Position numbers and translations under genes: made by a program | Source of the DNA: Nitrospirillum viridazoti CBAmc | GTDB taxonomy: Bacteria > Pseudomonadota > Alphaproteobacteria > Azospirillales > Azospirillaceae | Assembly: GCF_000730165.1 (NCBI RefSeq) | Contig: NZ_CP022112.1 | Location: 124,001-188,000, forward strand | Reading direction: 5' to 3' | DNA length: 64,000 nt | In this document: piece after piece, positions 51,658 through 56,125 of the stretch | How the letters are laid out: the number at the start of each line of letters is the position of its first letter | How positions within the stretch are numbered: the stretch's first letter is position 1 | The notes under the pieces: model-generated | The model's database searches: none | Told to the model about the DNA's origin: nothing | Seen by the model: only the letters and a program-made list of their open reading frames with translations

Positions 51658-52539
51658 CTATGCTGTGCCACCCCAATCGTAACGGCGGGCCAGGGCCATG
51701 AACTCGCGCAGGGCGGGGGAGTGGCGGCGGCCGGCGACGCTGGCCAGGCTGACGGTGCGCGACAGTTCCGGCTCGATCAGGGGGCGGGTGGCGATGCCGG
51801 GCAGCATGGGCAGGAATTCCGGCATCACGGCGCAGCCCAGGCCGGCCAGGATCATGGCCTGGATCCAGTCCTCCCGCTCGCTCTCGTAACAGACGCGGAC
51901 GTCGGCGGGGTCGGGGATGCCCAGGCTGTCGAAATGCTGCGGATATTCGCAGTTTACCCGGTTCAGATAGTCTTCCTGGTCCAGTTCGGCCAGAGGCACC
52001 ACGTCCATGGCTTCGAAGCGGTGGCCGGGGGCGAAGGCGACGGTATACCGCTCGCGGTACAGGGGCTTTGCCTCCACCCGGTCGGGCAGGTCGGGCAGGC
52101 CCAGCAGGGCGCAGTCCAGTTCCCCCTCCATCAGCAGGCCCAGCACCTCGCGTCCCGGCGCGTCGCGCAAGGCGACCTCCACCGAGGGCAGGGCCGCGCG
52201 GAAACGCTTCAGGAAGCCCACCAGGCGGGTGGGCCCGATGGTGCACATGACGCCCAGGCGCACCCGGCCCTTTTCCAGCTTACCGAAGCTGCGGGCCTCC
52301 AGCTTGGCGGACTCGCTGGCATGGAACACCGCCTCCAGGTGCGGGCGCATCAGGCGGCCCAGGTCGGACAGATGGGTCAGGGTGCGTTCGCGCACGAACA
52401 GCGGCCCGCCCAGTTCCTCCTCCAGCTTCTGGATGGCCTTGGTCAGCGAGGGCTGGGCCACGCCGCAGGCCTCCGCCGCCTTGGTGAAGTTCAGGGTTTC
52501 GCACAGCGCCACGAAGTAGCGCACCTGGTTCATTTCCAT
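51658..52539 (-). CDS. LysR-family transcriptional regulator
   Basis: A 293-residue LysR protein. The helix-turn-helix is LNFTKAAEACGVAQPSLTKAIQKLEEELGGPLFVRE (residues about 16-51), followed by a periplasmic-binding-like effector domain with CALLGLPDLPDRVEAKPLYRERYTVAFAPGHRF. It is reminiscent of OxyR/CynR-type regulators but has no clear effector clue. ATG 52539 is used; ATG 52533 is equally possible. The gene lies 110 bases before the Tat-exported protein in the same direction, which may be its target. Confidence 0.9.
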   Translation of the reverse strand: MEMNQVRYFVALCETLNFTKAAEACGVAQPSLTKAIQKLEEELGGPLFVRERTLTHLSDLGRLMRPHLEAVFHASESAKLEARSFGKLEKGRVRLGVMCTIGPTRLVGFLKRFRAALPSVEVALRDAPGREVLGLLMEGELDCALLGLPDLPDRVEAKPLYRERYTVAFAPGHRFEAMDVVPLAELDQEDYLNRVNCEYPQHFDSLGIPDPADVRVCYESEREDWIQAMILAGLGCAVMPEFLPMLPGIATRPLIEPELSRTVSLASVAGRRHSPALREFMALARRYDWGGTA

Positions 52540-52577
52540 GGCGGGTTCATTTCCATGAGGGGCATTTCCCTAGAAAC

Positions 52578-52616
52578 GGCGGCGTCCGGCCTTGTTGAAC
52601 CATGCCGGACGCCGCC
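52578..52616 (-). terminator. Terminator after the DTGS-protein gene
   Basis: GGCGGCGTCCGGC and its exact complement form a 13-bp stem with a 13-base loop, 30 bases past the stop at 52647. On the minus strand the stem is followed by CGTTTCTA. It probably ends the second bufferin transcript region. Confidence 0.65.
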
Positions 52617-52646: not shown

Positions 52647-53681
52647 TTACGAGCGCGGGCGCAGGCCCAGCCGGGTGTTGACGGCGTCGACCACATAATC
52701 ATAGGCGGCCAGCAGGTGGACGCCGGTGTTGAGGAAGCTGCCGCCCTGCGGGCTGGGGCCGCCGTTCAGGATGCGGCTGGGCGACGCCGGTTGGCTGGGG
52801 TCGCAGTTGACGTTGGGGCTTGGGCCGTCGGCCGGCTGGGTATTGACGAAGCTGTAGTTCAGCGCGGTGACGCCGGCCTCATCCTCCGCCTGGATGGTGA
52901 TGGCGGTGTTCAGCCAGGGGATGGGGGGCTGGGGCTCGGGCACGACCCCGATGAACATGTTGGTGATGCCGGCGTCCATCAGCATCTGCGCCTGGGTTTG
53001 GATGGGCGTTCCGCCCTGCGGCGTCACCGTCAGCTGCACCCAGGGTAGTTGCAGGCCGCTGGGGCTGCTGGAATCGGCCACCAAGGGTAGGAAGCGATAG
53101 CCCTGCAGGCTGTCGACGGTCTGTCCCAGGGTCACCAGGCCGTGCCGGCCATTGTCCTGCAAGGCCGCCGTCAGGGCATAGGCCGGCAGCACGGCGGGGT
53201 CGGGCTCCAGCATGTCGCGCAGATTCAGGAAGGGGTTGTCCAGCGCCGTGGCGGCATTACCGGATGGGGTCAGAGTGGCCTTGGCCTCTAGCCCGATGCC
53301 CACGCCCAGCATGTAGACCGTGTCGTCGTTGGTGCAGGCCATGACGCGCACCGGGCCCAGGACGGTGGTGCCCTGGGGTGTGCCGTCGCCCACCTGCAGG
53401 CCGGTGACGACCACGACGGGACCCGTGCGGGTGTTGCCGCTGGGCTCATAGGTGAAGGTCAGCGTCTCCCCCGCGGGCTGGGCCCAGGGCTGGAAGTTGC
53501 CCTCGCCATCCTGCAGCGTGGCGATGGGCACGACGATGCCGACCGAGCCCGTGTCGATGTTCACGCCGTGGCTTGCCTGGTTGGGGAAGAACAGGGTGGT
53601 GGAGAACAGGCCGGGCAGGTTGCCCGCCATGTTGATGGTGGGCTGGAAGGTGATGATGCGGGTGCCGTACTGGATGCTCAT
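52647..53681 (-). CDS. Aspartic-protease-like (DTGS motif) protein of unknown function
   Basis: A 344-residue beta-rich protein with NIDTGSVGIVVP (DTGS at residues 43-46), the loop sequence of pepsin-like catalytic aspartates; it somewhat resembles DUF3443 proteins. A second DTGS copy is not seen; the C-terminal half has LMDAGITNMFIG, where DAGITN could be a degenerate counterpart. There is no signal peptide. The C-terminus ends YDYVVDAVNTRLGLRPRS. ATG 53681 has GGAG seven bases upstream. It begins 74 bases after the DoxX gene of the second bufferin operon, so co-transcription is possible. Protease activity is not shown. Confidence 0.65.
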   Translation of the reverse strand: MSIQYGTRIITFQPTINMAGNLPGLFSTTLFFPNQASHGVNIDTGSVGIVVPIATLQDGEGNFQPWAQPAGETLTFTYEPSGNTRTGPVVVVTGLQVGDGTPQGTTVLGPVRVMACTNDDTVYMLGVGIGLEAKATLTPSGNAATALDNPFLNLRDMLEPDPAVLPAYALTAALQDNGRHGLVTLGQTVDSLQGYRFLPLVADSSSPSGLQLPWVQLTVTPQGGTPIQTQAQMLMDAGITNMFIGVVPEPQPPIPWLNTAITIQAEDEAGVTALNYSFVNTQPADGPSPNVNCDPSQPASPSRILNGGPSPQGGSFLNTGVHLLAAYDYVVDAVNTRLGLRPRS

Positions 53682-53755
53682 GGTGTCGCTCCTCAGGCAG
53701 GATGGGACCGGCCTGAGAATGTCCGTGCGGCGGGTTTGTTCCAACTGTTATGATC

Positions 53756-54253
53756 TTACAAGTTGTGACTCGCCGCCGGGTCCAGCCGCCGGCGGACCAG
53801 ATGGTCCAGCGACAGGACGCCGGGGCCGCGCAGGATGATGGGCACCAGCACCGCCGACCACAGCAGATGGTCGGGCCAGCTTTCGGGATAGACGAAGATC
53901 TCGATCACCAGGGTCATGCCGAACAGGGCGCCGGCCGACAGGCGCGACGCCAGGCCGACGACCAGCAGCACGGCGCACAGGTTTTCCGTGATGCTGGCCA
54001 GCACGGCCGCCACCTCCGGCGGGATCAGAGGCACCTTGTACTCGTCCCGGAACAGGTCGAACGTGGTGTCGTTGATGTGGAAGCCCGTCACCTTGGTCTG
54101 GCCGGACCGCCAGAAGACGGTGGCGGCCGCCAGGCGCCACAGCAGGGCGTCCAGCCCCCGGGGAAACCGCTCCAGCCGGTGGACGAGGGCCAGCGCCAAG
54201 GCGATGGGCGCGGGTTTGCCGGGCGCGGTGGTGGGCGTCAGGGGCAGGGTCAT
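53756..54253 (-). CDS. DoxX-family membrane protein of the second bufferin operon
   Basis: A 165-residue DoxX protein with about four hydrophobic helices. LLWRLAAATVFWRSGQTKVTGF near the N-terminus and ITENLCAVLLVVGLASRLSAG are typical. DoxX genes commonly close MNIO-RiPP operons, perhaps for redox or membrane association, but the function is unresolved. Its ATG overlaps the bufC stop (ATGA), making it clearly part of this operon. Confidence 0.88.
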   Translation of the reverse strand: MTLPLTPTTAPGKPAPIALALALVHRLERFPRGLDALLWRLAAATVFWRSGQTKVTGFHINDTTFDLFRDEYKVPLIPPEVAAVLASITENLCAVLLVVGLASRLSAGALFGMTLVIEIFVYPESWPDHLLWSAVLVPIILRGPGVLSLDHLVRRRLDPAASHNL

Positions 54254-54987
54254 GGCAATTCCACTCCGGTGAAGACCTGCGCCGCCAGCAGGCCCGTTAA
54301 TTCGTGTTCCAGATTGAAGCCCGCGTCCAGGGCCAGCGCGTTGTCCCAGGCGCTGCCCAGGGGCAAACCGGCGCCCAGGGCCATCAGCAGGGCGAAGGCG
54401 CCAGGCCCGAGGCGGATCAGCAGCACCTCGGCCGCCGGCCGCACCACCAGCAGGTGGGTGTCACCCTCGGTGTCCAGGTCCACCGTCGCGTCGCCGGCGT
54501 CCGGTTGGTTGGCCCGCCAGACGCGGTCCACCGGCCAGGGGCTGGTGACGAAGCGGTGGCTGGGGTGCAGGCGCCAGACGGCGTCCTCCACCGCGTCGCC
54601 CAGGGTAGCCAGGGCGCCCGCGTCCAGGGGTGCCGCCTCCGTCGCGTGGTAGGCATGGGTCCATGCCGCTTCCAGCCGGGCGACGTCGGCCAGATAGGGC
54701 AACTGCCGCGCCACCTCCTGCCCCCTCAGCCACGCGGGGAAGCCGGTGCCGTACCGTAGCAACGGCGCCTCGTGGGGCGGTTCGTGGCGGACGTAGGCCT
54801 GGGCCAGGCCGATGAAGCAGGCCTCGCCCACCAGGCGGTGGGTGACGGGGAAGCCGGCGGCAAGGACCGCCGCCAGGCCGCCCAGGGTGTTGTCACGGTG
54901 CAGGCCGGCGTTGGGCAGGGGCGGGGTGCCGGCGGTGGCCAGCACCCAGTCGCGCATGTCGCGCTGGCGCTCAAGCAGCGTGGGCAT
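54250..54987 (-). CDS. bufC: DUF2063 bufferin-modification partner protein, second operon
   Basis: A 245-residue DUF2063 protein. The N-terminal domain is MPTLLERQRDMRDWVL...GLHRDNTLGGLAAVLAAGFPVTHRLVGEACFIGLAQAYVRHEPP, with the usual helical pattern. It pairs with the MNIO enzyme encoded just upstream. ATG 54987 overlaps the bufB end by 17 bases; ATG 54996 is an alternative. It is quite different in sequence from the other BufC, so the operons are not recent duplicates. Confidence 0.86.
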   Translation of the reverse strand: MPTLLERQRDMRDWVLATAGTPPLPNAGLHRDNTLGGLAAVLAAGFPVTHRLVGEACFIGLAQAYVRHEPPHEAPLLRYGTGFPAWLRGQEVARQLPYLADVARLEAAWTHAYHATEAAPLDAGALATLGDAVEDAVWRLHPSHRFVTSPWPVDRVWRANQPDAGDATVDLDTEGDTHLLVVRPAAEVLLIRLGPGAFALLMALGAGLPLGSAWDNALALDAGFNLEHELTGLLAAQVFTGVELP

Positions 54988-55819
54988 GAGCCCCATCCTT
55001 TCCGGGCAGGACCTCGGCGATGCCGTCCGCGGTGGCGGCCTCGGCCAGCAATTCGGCCAGGGGCGGGATGTTGGCGTCCCGCTCCACCAGGGTGGGGATG
55101 GGGCCGAAGCGGGTCAGCGCCTGGCGGTACAGGTCCCACACGGCGGCTGTCACGGGGGCGCCATGGGTATCCAGCAGCACGGCGCGGCCGTCATGCTCGA
55201 CGGGCTCGTGCCCCGCCACGTGGATTTCGCCCACGGCACCGGCCGGCAGGGCGGCCAGGTAGGCCCTGGCGTCCAGCCCGACATTGTGGGCGCTGACATG
55301 GATGTTGTTCACATCCAGCAGGATGCCGCAGCCGGTACGGCGGGCCAGTTCCGCCAGGAAGGCCGCCTCGTCCCAATCGCTTTCCGGGAAAGCCGTGTAG
55401 CTGGACGGGTTCTCGACCAGGATGCGGCGGCGCAGGGCCGTCTGCGTCTGGTCGATGTGATCGGCCACCAGGGACAGGCTGGCATCGGTATAGGGAATGG
55501 GCAGCAGATCGTTGAGGTAGGTGCCATCGATGCGGCACCAGGCGAGATGCTCCGACACCAGTTCCGGCTGGTAGCGATCCACCAGGGCCGCCAAATCAGC
55601 CAGGTGATCGGCATCCAGCGGCTCCGCCCCGCCCAGGGACAGGCCGACACCGTGGATGGAGACGGGATACGCCTCACGCAGCGCGGTCAGCCAGCGGTGC
55701 GCCGGGCCGCCGGCGCTCATGTAATTCTCGGCATGCACTTCCAGAAAGCGCAGGGAGGGGCGGCGGGCCAACAGCTCGGCCGTATGGCGGGCCTTCAGGC
55801 CGATACCGGTGATGCCCAT
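54971..55819 (-). CDS. bufB: DUF692 MNIO enzyme, second bufferin operon
   Basis: A 282-residue multinuclear iron oxidase. The ligand regions [57 protein letters not shown] and LDTHG are all present. It lacks the N-terminal extension seen in the first copy and starts directly with MGITGIGLKARH. It follows bufA after 33 bases and overlaps bufC. It should modify the cysteines of the precursor at 55853. Confidence 0.93.
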   Translation of the reverse strand: MGITGIGLKARHTAELLARRPSLRFLEVHAENYMSAGGPAHRWLTALREAYPVSIHGVGLSLGGAEPLDADHLADLAALVDRYQPELVSEHLAWCRIDGTYLNDLLPIPYTDASLSLVADHIDQTQTALRRRILVENPSSYTAFPESDWDEAAFLAELARRTGCGILLDVNNIHVSAHNVGLDARAYLAALPAGAVGEIHVAGHEPVEHDGRAVLLDTHGAPVTAAVWDLYRQALTRFGPIPTLVERDANIPPLAELLAEAATADGIAEVLPGKDGAHAHAA

Positions 55820-55852: not shown

Positions 55853-56125
55853 TTACTTCTTAGCGGGTTCGGTGCTGCCGCCCGAGATCTTGGCGCAGGT
55901 GCCGGCCGGCACGGCGATGAAGGCGCCGGGATCGCGGTCCTTGGTGGCATGGCCGGCGCAGGAGTTGCTGTCGGTCTTGCAGTCGTTGTGGCCGGCCTTC
56001 ACGACGCCGTAGCACTTCTCCATGTCCGCGGCCTTGGCCGGGGCGGCGGCCAGGGTGGCGCCGGCGACGGCGGTGGCGACGATCAGGCCCAGGCCCAGGC
56101 GGCGGGAAACGGTAGTGGTCTGCAT
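55853..56125 (-). CDS. bufA: Bufferin-type RiPP precursor (DUF2282), second operon
   Basis: A 90-residue secreted precursor. The signal peptide ends near APAKAAD. The mature part has EKCYGVVKAGHNDC, SNSCAGHATKDRDPGAF and VPAGTC, spaced C-x10-C-x6-C-x20-C, the standard DUF2282 form. GAGGGG precedes ATG 56125. Its product is expected to be modified by BufB-BufC and to bind copper or another thiophilic metal in the periplasm. It differs from the other BufA in the third spacing and lacks the Lys/Pro tail. Confidence 0.92.
   Translation of the reverse strand: MQTTTVSRRLGLGLIVATAVAGATLAAAPAKAADMEKCYGVVKAGHNDCKTDSNSCAGHATKDRDPGAFIAVPAGTCAKISGGSTEPAKK

Follow-up and report, generated by a model that had tools for sequence, protein, structure and literature searches.

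The results presented here indicate that a 344-residue protein encoded beside a bufferin operon in Nitrospirillum is probably a cytosolic, bilobal aspartic peptidase that stands outside the working machinery of bufferin maturation and is possibly weakened by a Thr-to-Ala exchange after its second aspartate (a probability of about 0.6). Its gene lies in the window, the whole stretch of 64,000 nucleotides that was analysed, in a genome whose closest named relative is N. amazonense. The original prediction, whose coordinates (52647-54253) take in the DoxX gene (53756-54253) as well, described a 344-residue gene with an NIDTGSVGIV loop, 74 nt after DoxX on the same strand, and proposed it as a possible fifth member of the bufferin operon. 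The description is borne out by the open reading frame and its coordinates; the proposed membership is not supported by the genome comparisons. The features of the locus are as follows.

55853-56125, minus strand: bufA (DUF2282), by domain match
54971-55819, minus strand: bufB (MNIO), by domain match
54250-54996, minus strand: bufC-like gene (DUF2063), by domain match
53756-54253, minus strand: doxX, last gene of the bufferin operon (PF07681, E=2e-15)
53682-53755, minus strand: 74-nt gap after DoxX with a ribosome-binding site, partly conserved between gene-bearing congeners
52647-53681, minus strand: pepsin-like gene, encoding a 344-aa protein predicted to be bilobal (open reading frame, orthologs, dN/dS, AlphaFold2 model, whole-length pepsin matches)
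52578-52616, minus strand: perfect 13-bp hairpin past the pepsin-like gene, a probable terminator (shuffles, fold z, congener comparison)
51658-52539, minus strand: LysR-type regulator gene (PF03466/PF00126)

The pepsin-like gene runs for 344 codons from an ATG at 53681 to a stop at 52647, and a GAGGAG ribosome-binding site lies immediately 5' of the ATG. The start and the N-terminus of the protein (xIQYGT or similar) are common to the Nitrospirillum and Azospirillum orthologs, and the GC3 of the gene (0.92) is similar to that of its neighbours. The gene is real and under purifying selection, because the orthologs in two congeners have 96% and 83% protein identity and dN/dS values of 0.13 and 0.29. 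Inspection by eye shows no signal peptide at the N-terminus, in agreement with the initial reading of the sequence, nor one from the alternative TTG start at 53744.

Predicted fold of the 344-residue protein

A pepsin-like fold had been suspected from the DTGS loop, and both structure prediction and profile comparison support it. An AlphaFold2 model made with 14 sequences reached a pLDDT of 71.9; a second model, made with 32 relatives, reached a pLDDT of 84.7 and a pTM of 0.84. Pepsin-type aspartic proteases made up all the top Foldseek matches of the model (E about 5e-12). VIA-align matched residues 7-344 to whole pepsins, renins and plasmepsins, the best row being plasmepsin II (Z 20.4, 264 residues aligned, 3.3 A), so that the structure prediction proposed as a check of the fold returned a two-lobed pepsin over the whole length. 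The family profile, compared with all PDB chains, found Atlantic cod pepsin (E 0.0069, then 0.0022), with the first and second DTG and the C-terminal LRxY...D...GF region in register. The model thus supports a two-lobed pepsin fold within one chain, at an identity of about 15% to solved pepsins. Neither the shewasins nor 4EHC, the structure of the C-terminal aspartyl peptidase domain (PF20729) of PecA-type PE-PGRS proteins, is among the structural matches listed for the model, an absence that proves nothing.

A single-lobe homodimeric protease had been offered as one reading of the chain. Retropepsin-like bacterial proteases (PF13650/PF13975), APRc among them, consist of one-lobe domains that form dimers. 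The window protein shares with them the DTG loop, it has only one perfect DTG in its 344 residues (the DTGS at D43), and some of its relatives give weak PF13650/PF13975 matches. Unlike these proteases, however, it carries both lobes in one chain: there is a second-lobe motif at D236, the C-terminus is pepsin-like, and the structural matches span two lobes over the whole length. With both lobes and both catalytic aspartates in a single chain, the idea of a homodimer fails; it is contradicted by the model and can be given almost no weight.

Active-site motifs and catalysis

The earlier remark on the lack of an obvious second DTG is correct to the letter but misleads, since alignment with relatives reveals a second motif, DAG, within MLMDAGITNMF at D236. 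The residues of interest are encoded as follows.

53553-53555, minus strand: codon of D43, predicted first catalytic aspartate (DTGS, N-terminal lobe); D in 39 of 39 covering members
53448-53450, minus strand: codon of Y78 (TYEPSGN), candidate flap tyrosine; from the alignment, with equivalence to pepsin Tyr75 inferred by position
52974-52976, minus strand: codon of D236, predicted second catalytic aspartate (DAG); D in 41 of 41 members
52722-52730, minus strand: codons of N318-T319-G320, the family hallmark at the C-lobe psi-loop; from the alignment

Pepsin-type enzymes have Thr or Ser after each catalytic Asp (D-T/S-G) and a hydrophobic-hydrophobic-Gly sequence in both psi-loops. In the family described here, the residue after the second Asp is Thr in 26 members, Ser in nine, Ala in five and Cys in one (41 members). 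The five with Ala at position 237 are all the members of one subfamily (three from Nitrospirillum, two from Azospirillum), and the Cys is found in a paralog from the congener G004; elsewhere in the family the position is Thr or Ser. The N-lobe psi-loop of the window protein, MLG, fits the pepsin pattern, whereas the C-lobe psi-loop is N-T-G in nearly all family members, which counts against the peptidase reading. Y78 sits in the stretch where the flap is expected and is a candidate for the flap tyrosine, in an alignment column that is uncertain across the family.

The window protein probably acts as a monomer: an aspartic endopeptidase with the two lobes of the pepsin fold, retained in the cytosol. 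By analogy with pepsins, one aspartate from each lobe (D43 and D236) would activate a water molecule in the cleft, and the flap with Y78 would close over the substrate. In the subfamily, Ala in place of the Thr after the second Asp should loosen the grip of the active site and may lower activity. The side chains of Thr33 and Thr216 of pepsin form the hydrogen bonds of the fireman's grip (PMC11313796); at the position equivalent to Thr216, all five subfamily members have Ala, and the sister paralog in one congener has Cys. These exchanges argue against catalysis and make a non-catalytic role conceivable, namely that of a dead pepsin-fold pseudopeptidase kept for binding peptides or proteins in its cleft without cutting them. 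Such a protein would be expected to have lost one of its catalytic aspartates, yet both are invariant in every family member that covers them, the Ala subfamily included. Ala237 on its own would fit either reduced or abolished activity. Because both aspartates are invariant, an enzyme is favoured, and a pseudopeptidase seems rather unlikely.

A peptidase located in the cytosol is suggested by the N-terminus, since neither the window protein nor its clade relatives start with a hydrophobic signal sequence. In a FastTree tree of the family, the window protein falls in a clade of members without signal peptides visible by eye; the other clade carries them, and includes a paralog (L002) from the window protein's own genome. 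The clade of the window protein would have lost the signal peptide, or never had it. The shewasins, which are bacterial pepsins, likewise have no visible signal peptide (PMC2761423, PMC4814920), and a cytosolic location would match that of shewasin D (PMC4814920). Activity at neutral pH could be argued from the residue three positions past the second Asp (Rawlings and Bateman), but this line was abandoned, since shewasins carrying a comparable change work at acid pH (PMC4814920).

Position beside the bufferin operon

The pepsin-like gene is on the same strand as the neighbouring bufA-bufB-bufC-doxX genes and falls outside the published bufferin core of precursor, MNIO, DUF2063 and DoxX genes (PMC12452194). 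All seven Nitrospirillum genomes searched have relatives of bufB and doxX at this locus, and only three of them have the pepsin-like gene there. In the remaining four, the LysR gene comes straight after doxX, and no remnant of the pepsin-like gene was found in the intergenic stretch between them. Genomes that have the gene and genomes that lack it differ in the final codons of doxX. Outside Nitrospirillum, the nearest orthologs are from Azospirillum (47-49% identity). No bufferin genes occur near these orthologs, or near any relative in another genus, in the stretches examined. The Azospirillum orthologs have no common neighbour within about 9 kb on each side, the pepsin-like gene itself excepted, and share no neighbour with the window gene. 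A survey of linkage in related genomes had been proposed as a check, with the lack of conserved linkage as the outcome that would count against a fifth operon member, and that is largely the outcome found. The position beside the bufferin operon is a lineage-specific neighbourhood and looks accidental.

An accessory protease of the operon, confined to this lineage, is nonetheless a conceivable role for the gene product, which would trim BufA or the maturation proteins, or turn them over, ahead of export. The gene is on the same strand, 74 nt past DoxX with no terminator found between, and the arrangement is kept in three congeners. This role is improbable given that four of seven congeners have the operon with neither the gene nor remnants of it, and that bufferin genes are absent from the surroundings of subfamily orthologs elsewhere. 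The original reasoning, that RiPP systems often need a peptidase, is a poor fit to bufferins, the precursors of which have Sec signal peptides in place of leader peptides (PMC12452194). Moreover, in a survey of about 14,000 MNIO enzymes, additional conserved genes were found in bufferin clusters at extremely low proportions (PMC12452194). A protein that is no working part of bufferin maturation would be more in keeping with these observations, and the result is a useful negative for bufferins in that the core operon should not be extended to include its pepsin-like neighbour.

Some co-transcription with the bufferin operon in this lineage is plausible, because the gene continues the line of the operon and no terminator was found in the 74 nt that separate it from DoxX; read-through into the pepsin-like gene is thus possible. 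A simple consensus scan of the region found neither a sigma-70 promoter nor a terminator. Around and after the DoxX stop (53682-53760), the source genome (G000) and G004 both have GGAAC-N16-CATT and a conserved CATTCTCAGGCC, which may be a promoter belonging to the pepsin-like gene itself. A terminator had been claimed at the far end of the gene. A strong hairpin is indeed present 30 nt past the stop (perfect 13-bp stem, 13-nt loop, 0 expected in shuffles, fold z = -6.7), but only GTTTCT follows the stem, so it is no more than a probable intrinsic terminator.

The hairpin was not seen in the congeners that lack the pepsin-like gene and may have arrived together with it. In part of Nitrospirillum, the gene could have entered the space between DoxX and the LysR gene by insertion or by a recombinational exchange. 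In a tree of the flanking genes, the gene-free congener G003 falls inside the gene-bearing group, a placement suggestive of recombination or horizontal exchange at the locus. At the start of the LysR gene (52527-52556), two closely spaced copies of ATGGAAATGAACC are present in G000 and G002, and a single copy in G004 and three of the gene-free genomes. A target-site duplication was considered for this repeat in two genomes and rejected, since G004, the third gene-bearing genome, lacks it.

A family outside the catalogues

The family of the window protein is absent from Pfam and NCBIfam and is patchy in Alphaproteobacteria. The genomes sampled, all within Pseudomonadota, comprised 82 Azospirillaceae, 289 Alphaproteobacteria and 398 Pseudomonadota. 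The family was present in 39 of the 82 Azospirillaceae genomes searched and is scattered further in Alphaproteobacteria. Two-lobed pepsin-like proteins have been reported as very rare in bacteria, in seven genomes (PMC2761423). The window protein, searched as a single sequence, matched nothing in Pfam, NCBIfam or PDB sequences, and phmmer searches of two relatives (L066 and L068) against PDB chains gave no match. In tblastn searches of plasmids, the window protein had no match and an Azospirillum ortholog had two distant Azospirillum matches, annotated as hypothetical protein.

With the pepsin family (MEROPS A1, PF00026) the window protein shares, by prediction, a full-length two-lobed fold, DTGS in lobe 1, an Asp in lobe 2 and a pepsin-like C-terminal region. 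It differs in its second motif, where A1 members have D-T/S-G around both aspartates and D236 is followed by A-G, and in its psi-loops, with MLG in the N lobe and N-T-G in the C lobe in place of two hydrophobic-hydrophobic-Gly sequences. PF00026 did not match the window protein at E<=1 or 32 relatives at E<=0.1, and the only sequence-model link to pepsins is the PDB-chain profile match to cod pepsin. The family is called pepsin-like here and is kept out of A1 because of its C-lobe NTG motif and very low identity to pepsins.

PecA, a bacterial protease with two Asp, in DTG and DSG motifs, is active (PMC6819658), and some relatives of the window protein match the PecA-type domain, with its DTG/DSG active site. 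PF20729 matched six of 32 relatives, one above the cutoff and five weakly, with a best match of 3.1e-9 and 37.0 bits (cutoff 33). The window protein itself differs in having no PF20729 match, no PE domain and no secretion signal, and in coming from another host group. It is an evenly balanced proposition that the family is a bilobal, pepsin-fold bacterial family apart from PF00026 that bridges to the PecA type, in which a cytosolic branch exchanged the second-lobe Thr for Ala, kept both catalytic Asp and became either a protease of weakened, tunable activity or a pseudopeptidase that binds peptides. An uncatalogued family with apparently cytosolic, signal-peptide-bearing and autotransporter-fused forms offers material on the origin of two-lobed aspartic proteases.

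At least one family member runs on into autotransporter passenger repeats (PF12951). L070, L067 and L071 have N-terminal pepsin-like domains on long autotransporter-like proteins, with PATR repeats found in L070. The second, distant family member in the source genome (L002/L034, G000:C2:1406160-1407197) has a signal peptide and DTG/DTG motifs. In the congener G003 (L108:3896-6013), the gene region of this second member comes after a gene for a LodA-like lysine oxidase (PF17990, PF18417). At L022:9722-11323, the G004 paralog (L016) adjoins a DDE transposase gene, and the member in L023 lies among ORFs that appear transposase-like by eye; the transposase neighbours of these two members are in line with mobility of the family.
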